Positions 1,462-14,963 of a DNA stretch of 45,220 nucleotides are shown one piece after another. The position numbers and the translations under genes are program-made. The stretch is from NCBI GenBank assembly GCA_018266475.1, contig JAFEAI010000006.1, forward strand, positions 1 through 45,220. Direction: 5' to 3'. Numbering within the stretch: position 1 is the first letter of the stretch; each line of letters starts with the position of its first letter. The notes under the pieces are model-generated. The model made no database searches, was not told where the DNA came from, and worked only from the letters and a program-made list of their open reading frames with translations. The DNA comes from Bacteroidota bacterium (GTDB taxonomy: Bacteria > Bacteroidota > Bacteroidia > Flavobacteriales_F > PHOS-HE28).

Positions 1462-2664
1462 CTAAAGTAACGGCCCGGGCGCAGTGGCTGGCGCGGCCCC
1501 GGCTTGGCGGCGGTAGTAGCCGCGCACATAGTACAGGGCGCCCAGCATGATGGCGCCGGCGGAAACGTAGGGCAGCAGGTGCGAGAAGCCGTACAATCTA
1601 CCGCCCAGCGCCGGGCCCGCGATGCGCGCCAGCGAGCCGAAGCTCTGGTTCATGCCCAGCACCTCGCCCTGTTCGCGCTGCGCCGCATTCTTGCTCAGCA
1701 CGCTCAATATCGTGGGGCTCAGGCAGCCGTTGCCCAAGGCAAGCAGGGAGATGGAGACGATGCTCAGTGAAATGAAGTGCGCCTGGGGAATGAACGGGAT
1801 CATGCCTAAGCCCACGGCCATGCACAGGCTGCCGTATAGCATGAGCCTGCGCTCGCCGAAGGTGCGCTGCAGCCAGCCGATGAGGCCGCCTTGCACGATG
1901 GCCGAGGACACGCCCACGGCGGCGAACATCATCCCGATCTGCTCCTTGGTCAGGTGGTAGTCGTCCATCCACAGCAGGGCGATGGTCATCTGCATCATGC
2001 TGAAGGCGGTGATGAAGATGAAGCTGATCAGGAAGAGGTCGCGGAAGCGGGCGTCCTTCAGGGCGCGGATGGCGCTGGTGACGGGCGTGATGCGCACCTT
2101 GCGGTCCGTATCTTTCTGGTGCAGCGATTCGGGCAGGAAGGCCCACACGGCCACCATGTTCAGCACGCAGATGATGGCGGCGGCATAGCCCACCCACTCG
2201 ATGCCGAGGCGGGTGTAGATGAAGCTGCCCATGGGCGGCCCGAAGATGAACCCGAGGCCGAAGGCCGCACCGATCAGGCCCATGGCCTTGGCGCGCCCCT
2301 CCGGCGGGGTGATGTCGGTGATGTAGGCCTGTGCCGCCGTGATGTTGCCCGAGCCCGCACCGGTGAGCATGCGGCTGATGATGAGCAGCGGCAGGGTGGT
2401 GGCATGGGCGAAGAGCACGTAGCTGAGCGCGGAAATGCCCAACGCCCATTGGATCACCGGCACGCGCCCCATGCGGTCGCTTACCGTGCCCCACACCGGG
2501 GTGAAGATGAACATCATCACCGAGAAGAGCGCCCCGAGGTCGCCCACCAGCGCGTCGCTGGCGTGCAGTTCCCGCGCATAGATGGGGATCACCGGGATGA
2601 AGATCCCGAAGCCCATCAGGTCGATGAAGATGGTCAGAAAGAGGATGACAAGGCGCCGGTCCAT
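1462..2664 (-). CDS. MFS transporter, TetA/DHA1-like drug:H+ antiporter
   Basis: This is a predicted inner-membrane exporter of about 400 residues with 12 hydrophobic segments. The N-terminus [27 protein letters not shown] and the loop [14 protein letters not shown] (motif A, between helices 2 and 3) are typical of TetA/Bcr-type drug antiporters; [15 protein letters not shown] fits motif C of antiporters. Substrate cannot be told from sequence. The frame stays open upstream to 2805, but that extension only translates the heptamer repeat and is rejected. The ATG at 2662-2664 is preceded by a TAGCTTCG promoter box at 2679-2686. It stands alone rather than in an obvious operon, with its own promoter. 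Confidence 0.85.
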
Positions 2665-2678
2665 GGCAAAAAGGGGCG

Positions 2679-2686
2679 CGAAGCTA
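2679..2686 (-). promoter_or_regulatory. -7 box of the MFS gene (TAGCTTCG)
   Basis: TAnnTTCG variant 14 bases upstream of the ATG at 2664. Together with the repeat upstream it decides the start codon. Confidence 0.55.
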
Positions 2687-2710
2687 CCGCTCCACAGGCC
2701 ACCCACGAAT

Positions 2711-2788
2711 ACTGACAACCGACTGACAACTGACAACCGACAACTGACAACTGACAACTCACAACTGACAACTGCCAACTCACAACTA
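2711..2788. repeat. Tandem heptamer repeat GACAACN
   Basis: About ten imperfect 7-base units (GACAACT, GACAACC, CACAACT) stand head to tail between the NADH dehydrogenase gene and the MFS gene. Because seven is not a multiple of three, every frame reads a 7-residue peptide period, which makes a false N-terminal extension of the MFS protein. Confidence 0.9.
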
Positions 2789-4105
2789 CCCCCCGCTTTC
2801 CCCACCCACCATGTCCACCTTGCGCACGTATGGCCGGATAATGAGGCGGATCGTGTTCTTCCAGCTCAGGTACTTCCATGCCCAGTGGGTGAGCACCATC
2901 ACGCGGCTGCGGAAGCCCACAATGCTCATCAGGTGGACAAAGAGCCACAGGAACCAGGCAATGGGCCCGCCGAACTTGAGCCGCCCAAGGTCCACCACGG
3001 CCTTGTACCGGCCGATGGTGGCCATGGATCCCTTGTCCCGGTACTTGAACGGAACCCATTGCTCGCCAGGCTTGCGCAGCAGGTTCAGGGCCAGGTGGGC
3101 GGCCTGCTGGATGGCGGCCGGGGCTACCTGGGGATGGCCCTTTGGCCAAAGGGGATCGGACCGGTCCAGTGCCAGGTCGCCCAGGGCATAGATGTTGGCG
3201 GTGCCCTCTACGCGGTTGAAGGCATCGGTACGCAGGCGGGCGGGCCGCTCTTCCAGTGCCGGTTCAAGGCCCGGCACCGGTGCGCCTTTCACGCCAGCGG
3301 TCCAGATCACTGTGGTGCTGGGCATGGTGCTGCCGTCCTTGAAGGTGACGGTATCGCCGTCGTAATCGGTCACAAGCATGTTCAACTTCACATGCACGCC
3401 GAGCTCATGCAGGAATTTCAGCGCCGCCGCCCTGGATTTCGGGGAAAAGTTGCCCAGGACCTCATTGCCGCTGTCCACCAGATGGATCTGCATGCGCTGG
3501 CTTTCCACTTCGCGGTATTCATGCTTGAGGATGGTCTTGCGGATCTCCGCCAGCGCCCCTGCCAGCTCCACGCCACTGGGCCCGCCGCCCACGATCACGA
3601 AGTTCAGGCGTTGCCGTTGGGCATGTTCATCCTCCAGATAGATCGCAGCCTCGAACTCCTGGAGGAAATCACTGCGGATGTCCAGCGCCTGGTTGATGCT
3701 CTTTAGCTGCATGGCCTCGCGGGCGATGCGCTGGTTGCCGAAGAAGTTGGTCACCGTGCCCGTGGCCAGCACCAAGTGGTCGTAGGTGAAGCTGCCGTGG
3801 TCGGTATGCACCTGGTTGTTCAGGGCGTCTATGCGCAGCACCTCCGCCATGCGGAAGATCACGTTGGGCATGGGGCCCACGGTGCGGCGGAAGGGGTGCG
3901 CGATGTTGTCCGCGCCCAAGCTGCCCGTGGCCACCTGATAGAGCAGCGGCTGGAAGCAGTGGTAGTTGTTCTTGTCTAGCAGGATCACCTTGAAGGGCTT
4001 CCCCGACAGGCGTTTGATCAGCTCCAGTCCGGCAAAGCCACCGCCCACCACCACGATGGTGGGGTGGGGAAGGGCATCGAAGGCGGCACGTTCGGGGGTT
4101 TTCAT
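2786..4105 (-). CDS. ndh: Type II NADH:quinone oxidoreductase (NDH-2), FAD-dependent
   Basis: This is a single-subunit, non-proton-pumping NADH dehydrogenase that would pass electrons from NADH to quinone on the cytoplasmic membrane face. Two dinucleotide-binding motifs are visible: IVVVGGGFAGLELIKRL near residue 20 (FAD) and FVIVGGGPSGVELAGALAE near residue 170 (NADH). NNYHCFQPLLYQVATG and the late YALGDLA match the NDH-2 family pattern, and QVAPAAIQQA is the conserved quinone/FAD segment. The C-terminal part (GGPIAWFLWLFVHLMSIVGFRSR) is the membrane-anchoring amphipathic region. Length is 439 residues from the ATG at 4105; a second in-frame ATG at 4141 is possible, but ACCTTTG lies just before the 4105 start. 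Confidence 0.88.
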   Translation of the reverse strand: MKTPERAAFDALPHPTIVVVGGGFAGLELIKRLSGKPFKVILLDKNNYHCFQPLLYQVATGSLGADNIAHPFRRTVGPMPNVIFRMAEVLRIDALNNQVHTDHGSFTYDHLVLATGTVTNFFGNQRIAREAMQLKSINQALDIRSDFLQEFEAAIYLEDEHAQRQRLNFVIVGGGPSGVELAGALAEIRKTILKHEYREVESQRMQIHLVDSGNEVLGNFSPKSRAAALKFLHELGVHVKLNMLVTDYDGDTVTFKDGSTMPSTTVIWTAGVKGAPVPGLEPALEERPARLRTDAFNRVEGTANIYALGDLALDRSDPLWPKGHPQVAPAAIQQAAHLALNLLRKPGEQWVPFKYRDKGSMATIGRYKAVVDLGRLKFGGPIAWFLWLFVHLMSIVGFRSRVMVLTHWAWKYLSWKNTIRLIIRPYVRKVDMVGGESGG

Positions 4106-9795: not shown

Positions 9796-10461
9796 TCAGT
9801 AATACTCCGACACCAGTTCCTTCTTCACGCCAAGTTCCTTGAGCACCAGGGCCACGTGCTTCACGAAGGGCTCGGGGCCGCACAGGTAGAAGGGTTGGCT
9901 GAAATTCCGCACGTGCAGTTCAATGAACCCCTTGTCGATCTCGCCGCTTGCATTCCTGGGCCTGTCCTCCAAGGAGAGGATGCTGATGACCTGCGTGCCG
10001 AACATGTTGTGCAGTTCCCCCTCGAAGCAGATGTCCTCACCGCGCTTGTTGGCATAGAGCAGCATGTTGCCCTTCAGCTTTCCGTCCTTTTGCAACTGGC
10101 GGAAGATGGCCATGAAAGGCGTGATGCCCGTGCCTCCGGCAATGAACACCCCGGGGCCGCGGTATTCCACTTCATTGCGCGCTTCGCTGATCGATACGGC
10201 ATCACCCGCCTGCAGGCGATGCGCGTGCCCGGAAAGCGTTTCCTCGCCTTTGTAGGTCTTCATTGCTATCCGCAGGTCCGCATCGGTGTTCAATCCGATG
10301 AAGGAGAACGGTGCTTTTTCCGGCGCATAGCCTTCCCGCTGCATGGTCAGCTCCGCGCATTGCCCTGCGGTGTACGTGTAACCCCTGGGTTTTTCCAGCA
10401 CAAGCTGGAAGACGTCATGCGTCACCTTTTCCTTGTTCAGCAGTTTTACGGTGAAGGCCAT
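9796..10461 (-). CDS. FAD/NAD(P)-dependent ferredoxin-reductase-like oxidoreductase (paralogue 1)
   Basis: This is a stand-alone 221-residue reductase of the ferredoxin:NADP+ reductase superfamily. The FAD domain has APFSFIGLN (RxxS-type flavin motif, about residue 55); the NAD(P) domain has FIAGGTGITPFMAIFRQL near residue 110 and CGPEPFVKHV near residue 195, with an aromatic C-terminal pair (EYY). No 2Fe-2S or globin domain is attached, so the electron partner is unknown. It is about half identical by eye to the next gene upstream, and the two look like a tandem duplication separated by 140 bases. The ATG at 10461 was chosen because both paralogues then begin with the same M-[AE]-F-T-V-K pattern. 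Confidence 0.8.
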   Translation of the reverse strand: MAFTVKLLNKEKVTHDVFQLVLEKPRGYTYTAGQCAELTMQREGYAPEKAPFSFIGLNTDADLRIAMKTYKGEETLSGHAHRLQAGDAVSISEARNEVEYRGPGVFIAGGTGITPFMAIFRQLQKDGKLKGNMLLYANKRGEDICFEGELHNMFGTQVISILSLEDRPRNASGEIDKGFIELHVRNFSQPFYLCGPEPFVKHVALVLKELGVKKELVSEYY

Positions 10462-10601
10462 TGCGCGGGAGGTTTTGTTGCATGCTGGAACACCGCAGTG
10501 TCCTGGTTGGTTCGGTTGCTCGCCTGCATGATGGCCCGGCATCCCATTGGCTGGGGGCGATGCTGTGCCGAAGGCCGTTTTCCCGTACCACCAGGCTCCC
10601 C

Positions 10602-11273
10602 TCAGAACTGCACGTCGATCATGCTTTCGCTGGCGCCGAGCTGCACGAGCGCATTCTTCACCGCCTTTACGAAGCCTTCCGGCCCGCAGGTGTAGAAGGG
10701 CTGCTTGAAGTTGCTGATGTGTGCCTTCAGGAAATCGGCGCTTACCAAGCCGTGCAGGTATCCCGGCACCTCCTCGTTGCTGAGCACGGACCGGAAGTTG
10801 CTGCCAAGCAGGCTACGGAACTCGTCTTCCATAAAGGTGTCCGCCTTGGTCTTGTTGAAGAAGAAGAGGCTGTTGCCGACCAACTTGCCGTCCACCTTCA
10901 GCTGCCGCAGGATGGCGATGAACGGGGTGACGCCCGTGCCGCCCGCGATGAAGACGCCCGGCCCTTTCAGCGCCACGGTGTCGAAGGGTTCGCTGATCAC
11001 CACTTCGTCGCCCACCTTCAGGGTGTTGAGGATCTGCTCGGTAATGCCGTGGTGGCTGACGTAGCATTTGGTGGTGAGCTGCAGGTGCTGGTCGCTGTTG
11101 AGGCCCGTGAAGGTGAAGGGTGACACCTTGTCCCGCACCGAGTCGATGTGCGGCAGCTTGAAGTCGATGCCTTGCCCGGCAGAGAAGAAGTAGTCTTTCG
11201 GGCGTTCCAAGGTCATCCGCACCACATCATGCGTGAGCTGCTCTTTCTTCAGGATCTTGACTGTGAATTCCAT
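10602..11273 (-). CDS. FAD/NAD(P)-dependent ferredoxin-reductase-like oxidoreductase (paralogue 2)
   Basis: This 223-residue protein has the same two-domain layout as its neighbour: SPFTFTGLN near residue 55 for flavin, FIAGGTGVTPFIAILRQL near residue 117 for NAD(P), and CGPEGFVKAV near residue 197. Like paralogue 1 it has no fused ferredoxin or haem domain. The sister genes read MEFTVKILKKEQLTHDVVRM and MAFTVKLLNKEKVTHDVFQL at the start, so the family boundary is clear. A CAATTTTG element at 11308-11315 may be the -7 box. Closeness to nirK and a DoxX gene would fit a role in electron supply or nitrosative stress, but that is inference from position only. Confidence 0.8.
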   Translation of the reverse strand: MEFTVKILKKEQLTHDVVRMTLERPKDYFFSAGQGIDFKLPHIDSVRDKVSPFTFTGLNSDQHLQLTTKCYVSHHGITEQILNTLKVGDEVVISEPFDTVALKGPGVFIAGGTGVTPFIAILRQLKVDGKLVGNSLFFFNKTKADTFMEDEFRSLLGSNFRSVLSNEEVPGYLHGLVSADFLKAHISNFKQPFYTCGPEGFVKAVKNALVQLGASESMIDVQF

Positions 11274-11369: not shown

Positions 11370-11774
11370 TCATGCAAGGGCTGCTTTGGTGCTGCCATCG
11401 GTGACCTGGGTGAGCCGGGCAAGGCCATAAGCGCCAATGGCCATCACCAGGTCGCGCACCGCAACGTCGAGGTATTGCCCGCTGGATATGAGGGTGATCG
11501 CGATCAGCGTAAGCCAGGCCGAAACCAGGTAGGCACCGAACAGGGTGCGCGTGAGGACGAGGATGCCGGCCACGATCTCGATTACGCCCACTACCATCAT
11601 GAACGTGATCGGCCCAAAAGGCAACATGCCCGCCATCCAAGTGGGCACATAGTGCCCCCAGTCGGTAAGCAGGTTGGTGAATTTATCGGCCCCGGCCATG
11701 ATGGGCACCAGGCCGTAGCCGTATTTCAGGATGGATTGCAGGCGAGAGACCTCTTGTTGCGCGATGGCGTTCAT
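11370..11774 (-). CDS. DoxX-like small membrane protein, sigma-factor-linked
   Basis: This is a 134-residue integral membrane protein with four predicted helices (GYGLVPIMAGADKF, FGPITFMMVVGVIEIVAGILVL, LVSAWLTLIAITLI, AVRDLVMAIGAYGLARL), the layout of the DoxX/DoxD family. Several DoxX-family proteins are linked to oxidative or nitrosative stress or thiosulfate metabolism; the exact role here is unknown. An in-frame ATG at 11795 lies inside the promoter element described below, so the ATG at 11772-11774 (MNAIAQQEVSRLQ) is preferred. The gene is divergent from the sigma factor, and both carry the same promoter sequence, which implies control by that sigma factor. Confidence 0.7.
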   Translation of the reverse strand: MNAIAQQEVSRLQSILKYGYGLVPIMAGADKFTNLLTDWGHYVPTWMAGMLPFGPITFMMVVGVIEIVAGILVLTRTLFGAYLVSAWLTLIAITLISSGQYLDVAVRDLVMAIGAYGLARLTQVTDGSTKAALA

Positions 11775-11792
11775 GGTTGCAAGTGTTGTGGC

Positions 11793-11825
11793 CATTGGAT
11801 GGCCGAAGGCCGCCCAGGTTACAAA
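11793..11825 (-). promoter_or_regulatory. Putative ECF-sigma promoter of the DoxX gene
   Basis: On the minus strand TTTGTAAC (11825-11818), 17 bases, then ATCCAATG (11800-11793). The same two elements with the same 17-base spacing precede the divergent sigma factor gene. The TTTGTAAC copies form an 8-bp inverted repeat with a 30-bp centre. Confidence 0.65.
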
Positions 11826-11855
11826 CGGCGCGGAAAATGGGTGGCGCGGACGGGA

Positions 11856-11888
11856 TTTGTAACTTTAACTTGCGGGTTGCATCCAATG
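11856..11888 (+). promoter_or_regulatory. Putative autoregulated ECF-sigma promoter of the sigma gene
   Basis: TTTGTAAC at 11856-11863, a 17-base spacer and ATCCAATG at 11881-11888, identical in both elements and spacing to the promoter of the divergent DoxX gene. The start codon at 11900 lies 11 bases downstream. This is not the housekeeping TAnnTTTG type. Confidence 0.65.
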
Positions 11889-11899
11889 CGGAAGAAAGC

Positions 11900-12583
11900 A
11901 TGCGCAAATCCCTCCCCATGGAAGCGATCCAATTGGTCCCCAACCGCCATTCACAGTTGTCCGACAAGGAGGTGTTGATCCGTGTGCTGTCCGGTGAGAA
12001 GGCGTTGTATGAGATTTTGATGCGCCGCCACAACCAAACGCTCTATCGCGCCATTCGCAGCTACTTGCAACAGGGGGAGGATGTGGAGGATGCGATGCAG
12101 GAGACCTACCTGAAGGCTTTCGCAAAACTGGACCAGTTCAAGGGGGAATCCGCATTTTCCACCTGGCTGGTGCGCATCGGCATCAATGAGGCGCTGCAAC
12201 AGTTGCGCAGGTCGCGCATGCTGCGTGTGCATGCGGACCCGGACGTACGCTTGGATCAGATCGGCCAACTACCCGACAGGGAACAGATGAACCCCGAACA
12301 ACGCACCATCCATGGAGAGCAGCGCAGGCTGCTGGAGCAGGCCATGGACAAGCTGCCTGCGAATTACCGCGCCGTGTACATGCTGCGTGAGGTGGAGGGC
12401 ATGAGCGTGGCGGACACGGCGCATTGCCTGGAGTTGAGCGAGAGCAATGTGAAAGTACGCCTGCACCGTGCAAAGGACATGCTGAAGGAAACCATTTGGA
12501 AGTACCATGCAGAAGCTCCTGCCTTCGAGTTCGGCAGCGCCCATTGCGACAGGCTGGTGGAATCGGTGATGGCGCAGATCTGA
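11900..12583 (+). CDS. RNA polymerase sigma factor, ECF (sigma-70 group 4) type
   Basis: The protein has 227 residues. Region 2 covers about residues 30-95: LYEILMRRHNQTLYRAIRSYLQQGEDVEDAMQ and AFSTWLVRIGINEALQQLRR. Region 4 (about 145-200) has LPANYRAVYMLREVEGMSVADTAHCLELSESNVKVRLHRAK, the -35-binding helix-turn-helix. A short tail FEFGSAHCDRLVESVMAQI with one cysteine follows, a tail seen in a subset of ECF factors. No anti-sigma gene is adjacent, which is unusual. Its mirrored promoter with the DoxX gene suggests autoregulation. The stop codon TGA at 12581-12583 overlaps the left target duplication of the IS and originally abutted the stop of nirK. Confidence 0.88.
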   Translation: MRKSLPMEAIQLVPNRHSQLSDKEVLIRVLSGEKALYEILMRRHNQTLYRAIRSYLQQGEDVEDAMQETYLKAFAKLDQFKGESAFSTWLVRIGINEALQQLRRSRMLRVHADPDVRLDQIGQLPDREQMNPEQRTIHGEQRRLLEQAMDKLPANYRAVYMLREVEGMSVADTAHCLELSESNVKVRLHRAKDMLKETIWKYHAEAPAFEFGSAHCDRLVESVMAQI

Positions 12584-12589: not shown

Positions 12590-13863
12590 GGTTCTACCAC
12601 GAATTTAGTGGGGAATGCCGATTTTCGGGGCAAACCAAAGCCTAATGGAAAAGCTGTTTGAACGCCTATTGGAACTTGAGGCGGGCTGGGTAGTGACCCA
12701 AGTGGATACGGACATGGGTTTGGGCGAGGTCCATATCCATGTGGAGTGCAGATTGAAGAAGTGCGTTGATGCGGACTCAGGCGAGACTTGCAAGGTGTAT
12801 GACCATGCGCCCATGCGCAAGTGGCGGCACTTGGACATCATGCAGTACAAGACCTACATCTGCTGCAGACTGCCGCGCCTGCGGCTTCCAACCGGAGGGG
12901 TAAGGACGGTGGACCCCGGCTGGGCCTCCTCCCATGAGCGTCACACATACCTCTTCGAGCAGATGGTGATCGATCTTCTTCAGATGAGCGGCAACCAGAC
13001 CCGTACCGCGGCATTTATGCGTTGCGGCTTCAACGTGGTGAACCGGATCATCCACCTGAGCACCCGGCGGGGCATGGAACGAAGGAAGTTGCAAGAACAT
13101 GTGCTGGAGAATTTGAGCATTGACGAGAAGTCCTTCAAGAAAGGCCACAAGTACATCACCGTGTTGAGCGATCCGCGTTCGGGCTGCGTGTTGGACGTGG
13201 AAGAGGACCGCACCAAGGAAGCTTGCAGGAACTTGCTGGACAAGACCCTCACGCCCGCCCAACAGAAGGAGGTGCGTACGGTGAGCATGGACATGTGGAA
13301 GGCGTTCATGAACACGGTGAAGGAGGCCATGCCGCAGGCGGAGATCGTGCATGACAGGTTCCATTTGGTGAAGTACCTCAATGACGCACTGGACAAGGTG
13401 CGCAGGCGGGAAGTGAAAGCCCACGAGCTACTTCGCAACAGCAAGTACGCCTTGTTGAAGAACCCGGAGAACCTCACGGAAAAACAACGCATCAAGTTCG
13501 AGCAGATAAAGGCGGCCAACCATGAAGTGGCCAAGGCATGGCAGGTGCGGGAGAATTTCAAGGACCTCTTTGCAAGCAGCACGCACGAGGCCTTCCCGCT
13601 GTACATGAAATGGGCATCGGACGCGGTCAACAAGGGGATGAATGAGGTGTCCAAGGTGGTGGAAATGTTCCATGCGCACATGAATGGCGTGTTGAATGCC
13701 CTGGTGTGCAACTTCAGCAACGCCATGGCAGAACGCCTCAATGGGAAGATCCAGCAGCTAAAAAGTGTCGCAAGGGGGTACCGGACCTTTGCCAATTTCA
13801 GAAGCGCCATCCTCTTCTTCCATGGGGGCCTTGACCTCTACCCACTAAAATAATGGTAGAACC
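12590..13863 (+). mobile_element. Complete ISL3-family insertion sequence, 1274 bp
   Basis: Terminal inverted repeats at 12590-12612 and 13841-13863 match at 20 of 23 positions, both starting GGTTCTACCA and ending TTTAGTGGG. They are flanked by the perfect 8-bp duplication GATCAGTT. One intact transposase gene fills the element and its stop codon lies within the right terminal repeat. Intact ends, frame and duplication all indicate a recent insertion. It sits exactly between the convergent sigma-factor and nirK genes and breaks neither. Confidence 0.93.
12615..13853 (+). CDS. ISL3-family transposase
   Basis: This is a DDE transposase of up to 412 residues. The N-terminal zinc-binding region has C..KKC (near 48-52), a further cysteine, KWRHLDIMQY and a CC pair, in the ISL3 order. 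The catalytic domain shows ENLSIDEKSFKKGHKY with the first acidic residue near position 172, VSMDMWKAF with the second, and NAMAERLNGKIQQLKSVARGYRTFANFR with the third near position 378. HDRFHLVKYLNDALDKVRR is the conserved linker. An ATG at 12645 (MEKLFERLLELEAGW) fits family N-termini equally well, so the start could be 10 residues later. Frame is intact, so the element should be mobile. Confidence 0.92.
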   Translation: MPIFGANQSLMEKLFERLLELEAGWVVTQVDTDMGLGEVHIHVECRLKKCVDADSGETCKVYDHAPMRKWRHLDIMQYKTYICCRLPRLRLPTGGVRTVDPGWASSHERHTYLFEQMVIDLLQMSGNQTRTAAFMRCGFNVVNRIIHLSTRRGMERRKLQEHVLENLSIDEKSFKKGHKYITVLSDPRSGCVLDVEEDRTKEACRNLLDKTLTPAQQKEVRTVSMDMWKAFMNTVKEAMPQAEIVHDRFHLVKYLNDALDKVRRREVKAHELLRNSKYALLKNPENLTEKQRIKFEQIKAANHEVAKAWQVRENFKDLFASSTHEAFPLYMKWASDAVNKGMNEVSKVVEMFHAHMNGVLNALVCNFSNAMAERLNGKIQQLKSVARGYRTFANFRSAILFFHGGLDLYPLK

Positions 13864-13871
13864 GATCAGTT
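13864..13871. repeat. Right target-site duplication GATCAGTT
   Basis: Second copy of the 8-bp target duplication. It contains the TCA that is the nirK stop codon on the minus strand. Confidence 0.93.
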
Positions 13872-14963
13872 TGATGCGTGCGGCTTTGCCACTTGCTCCA
13901 TGAGCTTGTTGTTCCAGTTTCCGCTGACCTTCACGGTGCCTTTGGCATCAAATAGCTCCGCTTTGATCAGGTTGTGGTCCACGAAGGCATAGTTGCCCGG
14001 CTCGCGGAACTGGTACAGGGCGGCCACGGCGGATCCACCGGGCACAAACCAGGTCTCCTGGTTCGTAAGCGGCTTGTCATTGAAGGATCCTCCCTGCCAC
14101 ACCAGGTCGGCATGGCCGCCGATGAGGTGGAAGCGCGCATCAATGTTGCAACTGGCGGTGATGAAGAGCACCTTCTCACCGACGTTGGCGGCCATGGCAT
14201 GGTCGTTCTGGAGCGCACCTTCCACGCCATTGAAAACAAGGTGGGAGGGCGTGAGCGTGCGCATCACGGCAAGCATGTCGGCAAAGGCCGCCGAGGGTTT
14301 TTCGTATTCCTTGAAGTTCCCGGCTTCGTCCTTGGGGAGGTAATAGTCCTGTTCCGCCACGTAATAGGCGCGGTCGTACTTCAACGGATGCCCGTTTTCA
14401 TCGGTGAGCCCGTTCGGGGGCAGCACCATGATGGCCCCGTTCATGCCGCTGGCGATGTGCAGCGGCGTCATCACCCCGCCGGGGGCGCAGTGGTACACGA
14501 AAACCCCCGGCTTGATCACGCGAAACCTGATGGTGGCTTCCTGCCCGGGCGCCACCTCCGTGAGGTCGCCGCCGCCCATGGCCCCGGTGGCCGCATGCAG
14601 GTCGATGTTGTGCGTGAGCGTATTGGTGGCGGGGTTTACCAGGTGGAGCTGGACGTAATCGCCCTGATGGGCCACGATCAGCGGTGCGGGCACGCTGCCG
14701 TTGAAGGTGAGCGCCCACAGGGTGGCGCGCGGGCTGATCTTCACCTTCTTCTCCTGGACCACCAGCTCCACCTCCACCACGTGCGGCCCGCCTTTCTCCA
14801 CCTGGTCGTATGCCGGCAGCAGGGGCGGGGCCACCAGGGCTTCTTGTACGTGGGGGAGCTTTTCGGCATCCACATCCGCCAGCGGCGTGAAAACCGAAGA
14901 GGGCGTGCAGGCGGCCAACAGAAGGGTGATCGGAAGGAGGCGGATGGCGATAGGGGGCTTCAT
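13866..14963 (-). CDS. nirK: Copper-containing nitrite reductase NirK, predicted lipoprotein
   Basis: It would reduce nitrite to nitric oxide in denitrification. It has 365 residues with a lipobox LLAAC (Cys19), so it is probably anchored on the periplasmic or outer surface. All copper ligands are visible: type 1 His118, Cys159, His169 and Met174; type 2 His123, His158 and His330; the catalytic Asp121 (HNIDLHAATG) and His284 (HLIGGHADLVW) are present. FVYHCAPGGVMTPLH and NYAFVDHNLIKA are diagnostic. No other denitrification gene is in the window. No TAnnTTTG box or TTTGTAAC element is evident upstream, so regulation is unclear; FNR-type control is possible but not seen. The stop lies within the IS target duplication. 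Confidence 0.93.
   Translation of the reverse strand: MKPPIAIRLLPITLLLAACTPSSVFTPLADVDAEKLPHVQEALVAPPLLPAYDQVEKGGPHVVEVELVVQEKKVKISPRATLWALTFNGSVPAPLIVAHQGDYVQLHLVNPATNTLTHNIDLHAATGAMGGGDLTEVAPGQEATIRFRVIKPGVFVYHCAPGGVMTPLHIASGMNGAIMVLPPNGLTDENGHPLKYDRAYYVAEQDYYLPKDEAGNFKEYEKPSAAFADMLAVMRTLTPSHLVFNGVEGALQNDHAMAANVGEKVLFITASCNIDARFHLIGGHADLVWQGGSFNDKPLTNQETWFVPGGSAVAALYQFREPGNYAFVDHNLIKAELFDAKGTVKVSGNWNNKLMEQVAKPHASN

Follow-up and report, generated by a model that had tools for sequence, protein, structure and literature searches.

The stretch of DNA analyzed here (the window, 45,220 nucleotides of contig JAFEAI010000006.1 from a Bacteroidota bacterium of the lineage PHOS-HE28) carries a gene for an extracytoplasmic function (ECF) sigma factor and, divergent from it, a gene for a DoxX-like membrane protein. 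Between the two genes lie two identical elements in mirror image, and these are very probably, as far as comparison of sequences can tell, a promoter pair read by the adjoining ECF, which would control its own gene and a small envelope and redox regulon. The initial annotation had proposed that the ECF promoter is autoregulated and has a single divergent target, and this is still the best reading: the elements are kept at orthologous loci, and within the genus the distal targets go with the ECF gene. The predicted regulon is wider than the one first envisaged, and it takes in a DUF4142-cupredoxin pair, cytochrome-like proteins, FAD/NAD reductases, and a small Cys-containing membrane protein. 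The same promoter sequence is shared by the ECF gene and the regulon genes, as seen in this genome, in loci across the phylum, and at the DUF4142 orthologues.

On the plus strand, TTTGTAAC occupies positions 11856-11863; its minus-strand copy, which reads GTTACAAA on the plus strand, is found at 11818-11825. Exactly 17 bases past each copy comes ATCCAATG, at 11881-11888 (+) and 11793-11800 (-), and the full TTTGTAAC-N17-ATCCAATG units, exact and mirrored, span 11856-11888 (+) and 11793-11825 (-). Within TTTGTAAC, the hexamer TGTAAC is the putative -35 box of the ECF promoter at 11858-11863 (+) and that of the DoxX promoter at 11818-11823 (-), with a gap of 34 bp between the two (11824-11857). 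The -10 boxes would be the two copies of ATCCAATG; the minus-strand one contains an ATG at 11795, which is likely a part of the -10 box and not the start of the DoxX gene. That two such elements with the same spacing are beyond chance, as first suggested, is borne out by shuffles of the window, which, with up to three mismatches allowed, gave 0.09 matches versus the two exact ones observed, and by a reversed-pattern control, which had no hits at up to one mismatch in 45 genomes of the genus.

The scan of the genome and its relatives that the initial annotation recommended extends this picture. Throughout the 3.57-Mb genome there are three exact matches to TTTGTAAC-N17-ATCCAATG, and the third one (C279:21362) is located about 30 bp 5' of a gene for a DUF4142 protein (PF13628, 1.4e-36), followed by a gene for a cupredoxin (PF00127, 2e-6). 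Because this copy is outside the DNA in which the elements were first noticed, it is independent support. A weaker single site occurs at C188, and a weaker match in this genome precedes the gene for the small Cys-containing membrane protein; the sites with two or three mismatches other than C188 showed no orthologue support and were set aside. A second, distant ECF gene is present about 2.7 kb past the DUF4142-cupredoxin target (G000:C279:24640-25089, in L011).

Within the genus (searches at the family and order level return the same 45 genomes), the ECF is encoded in 14. The full motif, exact or with one mismatch, is present in seven of these and in one other genome, the latter with a single hit whose -35 box is altered. 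A core of 13 bases, with one mismatch allowed, lies upstream of the ECF gene in 13 of the 14, and the fourteenth, G020, has TGTAAC-N17-ATCAAA in that place. At the same stringency, the divergent site of the core faces DoxX in G000, G018, and G020 and a reductase in seven others; therefore, loss of DoxX is possible without loss of the promoter. The targets follow the ECF gene: DoxX orthologues are restricted to ECF-bearing genomes (5/14 versus 0/31 of those lacking the ECF, with no match at E<=1e-8 in nine of the 14), and DUF4142 orthologues occur in 9/14 versus 0/31 (Fisher 2e-6, uncorrected for relatedness among the genomes, which inflates such values). All nine DUF4142 orthologues have a site at up to one mismatch, 26-40 bp 5' of the ATG, and the small membrane protein of the CHGEC type carries one in three genomes.

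Alignment of the intergenic region across orthologous loci, likewise recommended at the outset, finds the elements retained rather than lost. The comparison covers 81 loci, namely the window and 80 from named genomes (some of which repeat genus genomes), and spans Flavobacteriales, Cytophagales, and one Ignavibacteria metagenome-assembled genome. With at most one mismatch, TGTAAC-N17-ATCNAA occurs on the ECF side in 78 of the 81 loci, on the divergent side in 73, and on both sides in 71; a control pattern is found in one of the 81, and when the same upstream regions are resampled with a Markov model, the mean is 0.3 for one side and 0 for both. In the 78 aligned ECF-side sites, TGTAAC is nearly invariant (0.97-1.00 per position), and the consensus reads TTGTAAC-N17-ATC(T/A/C)AA, mostly with a C before ATC; the spacer is 17 bp in nearly all loci, and ATCCAA, with its second C, is how the box reads in the window's own lineage. 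In 53 of 77 loci the divergent neighbor is DoxX, and the earlier remark that no anti-sigma gene is adjacent can be extended, in that no conserved anti-sigma-like gene was found near the ECF gene in these 77.

An unbiased search of 395 genomes with GTTACA-N4-7-TGTAAC-N17-ATCNAA returned ten matches, spread over six genomes; four of these genomes have a site with both sides complete, in each case 15-34 bp 5' of the ECF gene, and the other two have single-sided matches. ECF relatives occur in 20 of the 395 sampled Bacteroidota genomes (about 5%), and the promoter in at least nine of these 20; some remote relatives have the Cys tail described below without the promoter, which bounds the group. In distant genomes, extra sites precede DoxX paralogues, a DUF4142-cupredoxin pair, a reductase, and a cytochrome-like protein of 440-455 residues with a CALCHS motif. 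In Roseivirga (L221, G048), there is a second DoxX paralogue that has a site of its own, and the gene after it looks, by eye, like one for a regulator of the Rrf2 family, which includes the nitric oxide sensor NsrR. One contig of Cerina litoralis (L177, L194) has two ECF copies about 21 kb apart, each with a mirrored -35 pair.

Genome counts, shuffles, the reversed control, conservation in the phylum, and Markov resampling rule out a chance origin of the elements. A housekeeping Bacteroidota promoter (TAnnTTTG) is thought unlikely, given a conserved -10 box of the phylum-wide form ATC(T/C/A)AA and its constant spacing of 17 bp.

How would such a system work? The ECF (11918-12583) and RNA polymerase would recognize the -35 box TGTAAC, the 17-bp spacer, and the -10 box ATC(C/T)AA. 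The plus-strand copy would drive the ECF's own gene, a positive autoregulation, and the mirrored copy would drive the DoxX-like gene and probably also both reductase genes behind it. Elsewhere, single copies would drive the genes for DUF4142 and cupredoxin, and a weaker match that for the small Cys-containing membrane protein. With no neighboring anti-sigma gene, the sigma factor would perhaps be gated by its C-terminal tail with an invariant Cys-Asp, and its activation would yield, in a small burst, proteins of the envelope and of redox protection. The signal may be a thiol-reactive agent, a metal, or an oxidant; copper is suggested by the cupredoxin, the CHGEC-type membrane protein, and the parallel with Caulobacter discussed below. 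As for L012, a CHGEC motif marks a small membrane protein (3329-3772, -), behind which comes a protein with a CDQCGCG motif (2303-3262, -), and the pair faces a large gene resembling those of outer-membrane receptors; it looks like a metal-handling locus and may be a member of the regulon.

The ECF gene (11918-12583, +) encodes 221 amino acids, with the start codon probably at 11918 and not at 11900, the position first annotated, judging from the alignment of orthologues. In a 227-residue form of the protein, PF04542 (40-106) and PF08281 (143-194) correspond to sigma2 and sigma4 without sigma3, as in group 4 of the sigma-70 family, and a structure model has two helical regions with a low-confidence linker between them. 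The match to NF008888 (PRK11922) is full-length and includes the tail (236.5 bits versus a cutoff of 204, positions 10-226 of 231 in the profile; a second score is 238.4 bits with the cutoff at 204); this model is named RNA polymerase sigma factor, with no described function or promoter. The tail past sigma4 (residues about 196-221, counted from the Met at 11918) has the pattern F-E-F-G-x-x-H-C-D, and F205, C210, and D211 are present in 45 of 45 sequences (the codons of Cys210-Asp211 are at 12545-12550, +). These 45 sequences have no other invariant Cys, no CXC motif, and no invariant Cys in the linker. The last helix of the tail (207-220) is modeled with good confidence and is joined by a poorly modeled loop; the matched PDB chains stop at 192-201, so the tail is not covered by them. 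The tail Cys, named at the outset as a candidate for holding the sigma factor inactive, is strengthened by its invariance, and sensing through this residue is put forward as a tentative proposal. In L054 (G017:C104) and L116, the ECF orthologue has one in-frame TAG and both promoters are intact, which reflects either a pseudogene of recent origin or an error in sequencing.

With regard to known systems, the ECF16 group (Caulobacter SigF-NrsF, Bradyrhizobium EcfF-OsrA, Brucella BcrS-AbcS) has a promoter of the form (T/C)GTAAC-N17-CGAA (PMC8315932), also written tGTAACc-N16-CGAA (PMC3420878), and the Caulobacter SigF regulon, DoxX protein included, is copper-induced (PMC8224329). The system of the window shares with this group the -35 TGTAAC and the 17-bp spacing and, as predicted here, autoregulation and a small stress regulon, together with the DoxX target of Caulobacter SigF. 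However, the -10 box differs (ATC(T/C/A)AA versus CGAA), MsrPQ and bufferins give way to DUF4142, cupredoxin, and cytochrome-like proteins among the predicted targets, the sigma factor ends in a tail whose Cys is invariant, and no DUF1109/NrsF anti-sigma gene is among the conserved neighbors. The comparison with the GTAAC-type element of Caulobacter SigF made at the outset stands for the -35 box and the spacing and falls for the -10 box, and membership in ECF16 is rejected on the -10 box and on the DUF1109/NrsF gene, none being conserved in the 77 loci.

CorE-type ECFs of Myxococcus xanthus (formerly ECF44, now ECF238) have no anti-sigma factor, and cysteines of a C-terminal extension control their activity (PMC8999054). 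The window ECF is alike in having no conserved anti-sigma neighbor and in its C-terminal cysteine, whose role in activity is known for CorE and tentatively proposed here; it differs in that a single Cys is invariant and the linker has no such residue, and it is not counted as CorE-like because it lacks the Cys-rich C-terminal domain pattern and the CXC linker motif. ECF26 (Sinorhizobium RpoE1/RpoE4, sulfite response) is autoregulated, with cytochrome and blue-copper-protein targets (PMC3511301), a GGAATA/GT consensus, and an anti-sigma gene downstream (PMC6180224). Cytochrome-like and copper-protein targets and autoregulation recur as predictions for the window ECF, but membership is rejected on the different promoter and the lack of a conserved anti-sigma neighbor. 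The regulons of Neisseria SigE and Haemophilus RpoE2 include a DoxX-like protein and, for Neisseria SigE, a NirK-like protein (PMC7907618); the DoxX-like and NirK-like proteins are the points of likeness, while the cytoplasmic anti-sigma HrsE of Haemophilus and the MsrAB targets are points of difference. A literature search turned up no paper describing a regulon of DUF4142, DoxX, and a sigma factor in flavobacteria, and one for TGTAAC in connection with ECFs yielded ECF16 and, beyond it, only unrelated systems.

Several observations weigh against parts of the proposed scheme. Related ECFs without this promoter also retain the Cys tail, and the structure model is uninformative on sensing. Weak single sites, such as that at C188, are uncertain without orthologue support; the one-mismatch core also matches by chance in genomes lacking the ECF, and one-mismatch sites 5' of unrelated genes are possibly due to chance.

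The geometry of the pair raises a further point. In 70 of the 71 pairs, 4-7 bp separate the two mirrored -35 boxes, and the window alone has a separation of 34 bp. The shorter distance would leave hardly any room for two polymerases at once, from which we infer mutual exclusion. One can imagine, as a bolder and rather doubtful extension, a one-component ECF: with no anti-sigma factor, a thiol-reactive metal or an oxidant would be sensed directly by the single invariant Cys of the short tail helix, and the closely spaced -35 boxes would make transcription of the sigma factor gene and of its main target mutually exclusive, a damping that would be relaxed by the window's 34-bp gap.

Could a protein do the sensing instead? 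A membrane protein of the regulon, such as DoxX, might be an unrecognized anti-sigma factor and sensor in place of the Cys tail, an improbable arrangement that concerns the sensing step only and not the reading of the promoters. DoxX is divergent and apparently co-regulated in most loci, and the ECF16 anti-sigma NrsF/OsrA is likewise a multipass membrane protein with key cysteines; yet DoxX is not obligatory, being without a match in most ECF-bearing genomes of the genus. Very unlikely is a palindromic operator, GTTACA-N4-7-TGTAAC, by which a dimeric transcription factor would control both divergent genes, the boxes not being sigma -35 elements at all. The close half-sites do form a near-perfect inverted repeat, but the 34-bp gap of the window argues against dimeric binding, and both complete elements are kept there despite it; in addition, the DUF4142 sites are single and nonpalindromic, ATCNAA stands at its fixed 17 bp in nearly every site, and the distribution follows the ECF gene. 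Least likely of all, a different ECF might read the promoters with the window ECF merely one target: the genome encodes about nine further ECF-like proteins, including the one past the DUF4142 target, but the motif and its targets track the window ECF in the genus and the phylum, and the mirrored pair directly adjoins it.

The DoxX-like protein (11370-11774, -, start 11774) scores 15.8 bits against PF07681, below the cutoff of 23.6, and its Flavobacteriaceae orthologue, 64% identical, reaches 25.5 bits. Behind DoxX, an FAD/NAD-binding oxidoreductase (10602-11273, -), which in seven relatives without DoxX stands directly divergent from the ECF gene, is probably co-transcribed, and a second, similar one (9796-10467, -) is possibly in the same operon, given gene order and strand. 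On the 3' side of the ECF gene are an ISL3 transposase (12615-13853, +) and nirK (13866-14963, -). Because nirK directly follows the ECF gene in four related loci, the transposase appears to have been inserted later. The nitrosative stress once suggested by nirK finds weak backing, with nirK clustering with the ECF in 4 of 77 loci and the transposase intervening here, and it was not adopted.

Few ECF regulons have been defined in Bacteroidota. The present analysis supplies a testable regulon, a promoter, and a candidate sensor residue for an ECF with relatives in about 5% of the sampled genomes of this phylum. The -35 box, the spacing, and the DoxX target of the ECF16 copper/oxidant system recur in it, minus the anti-sigma factor, and these sigma factors are therefore a natural group for asking how an ECF works without one.
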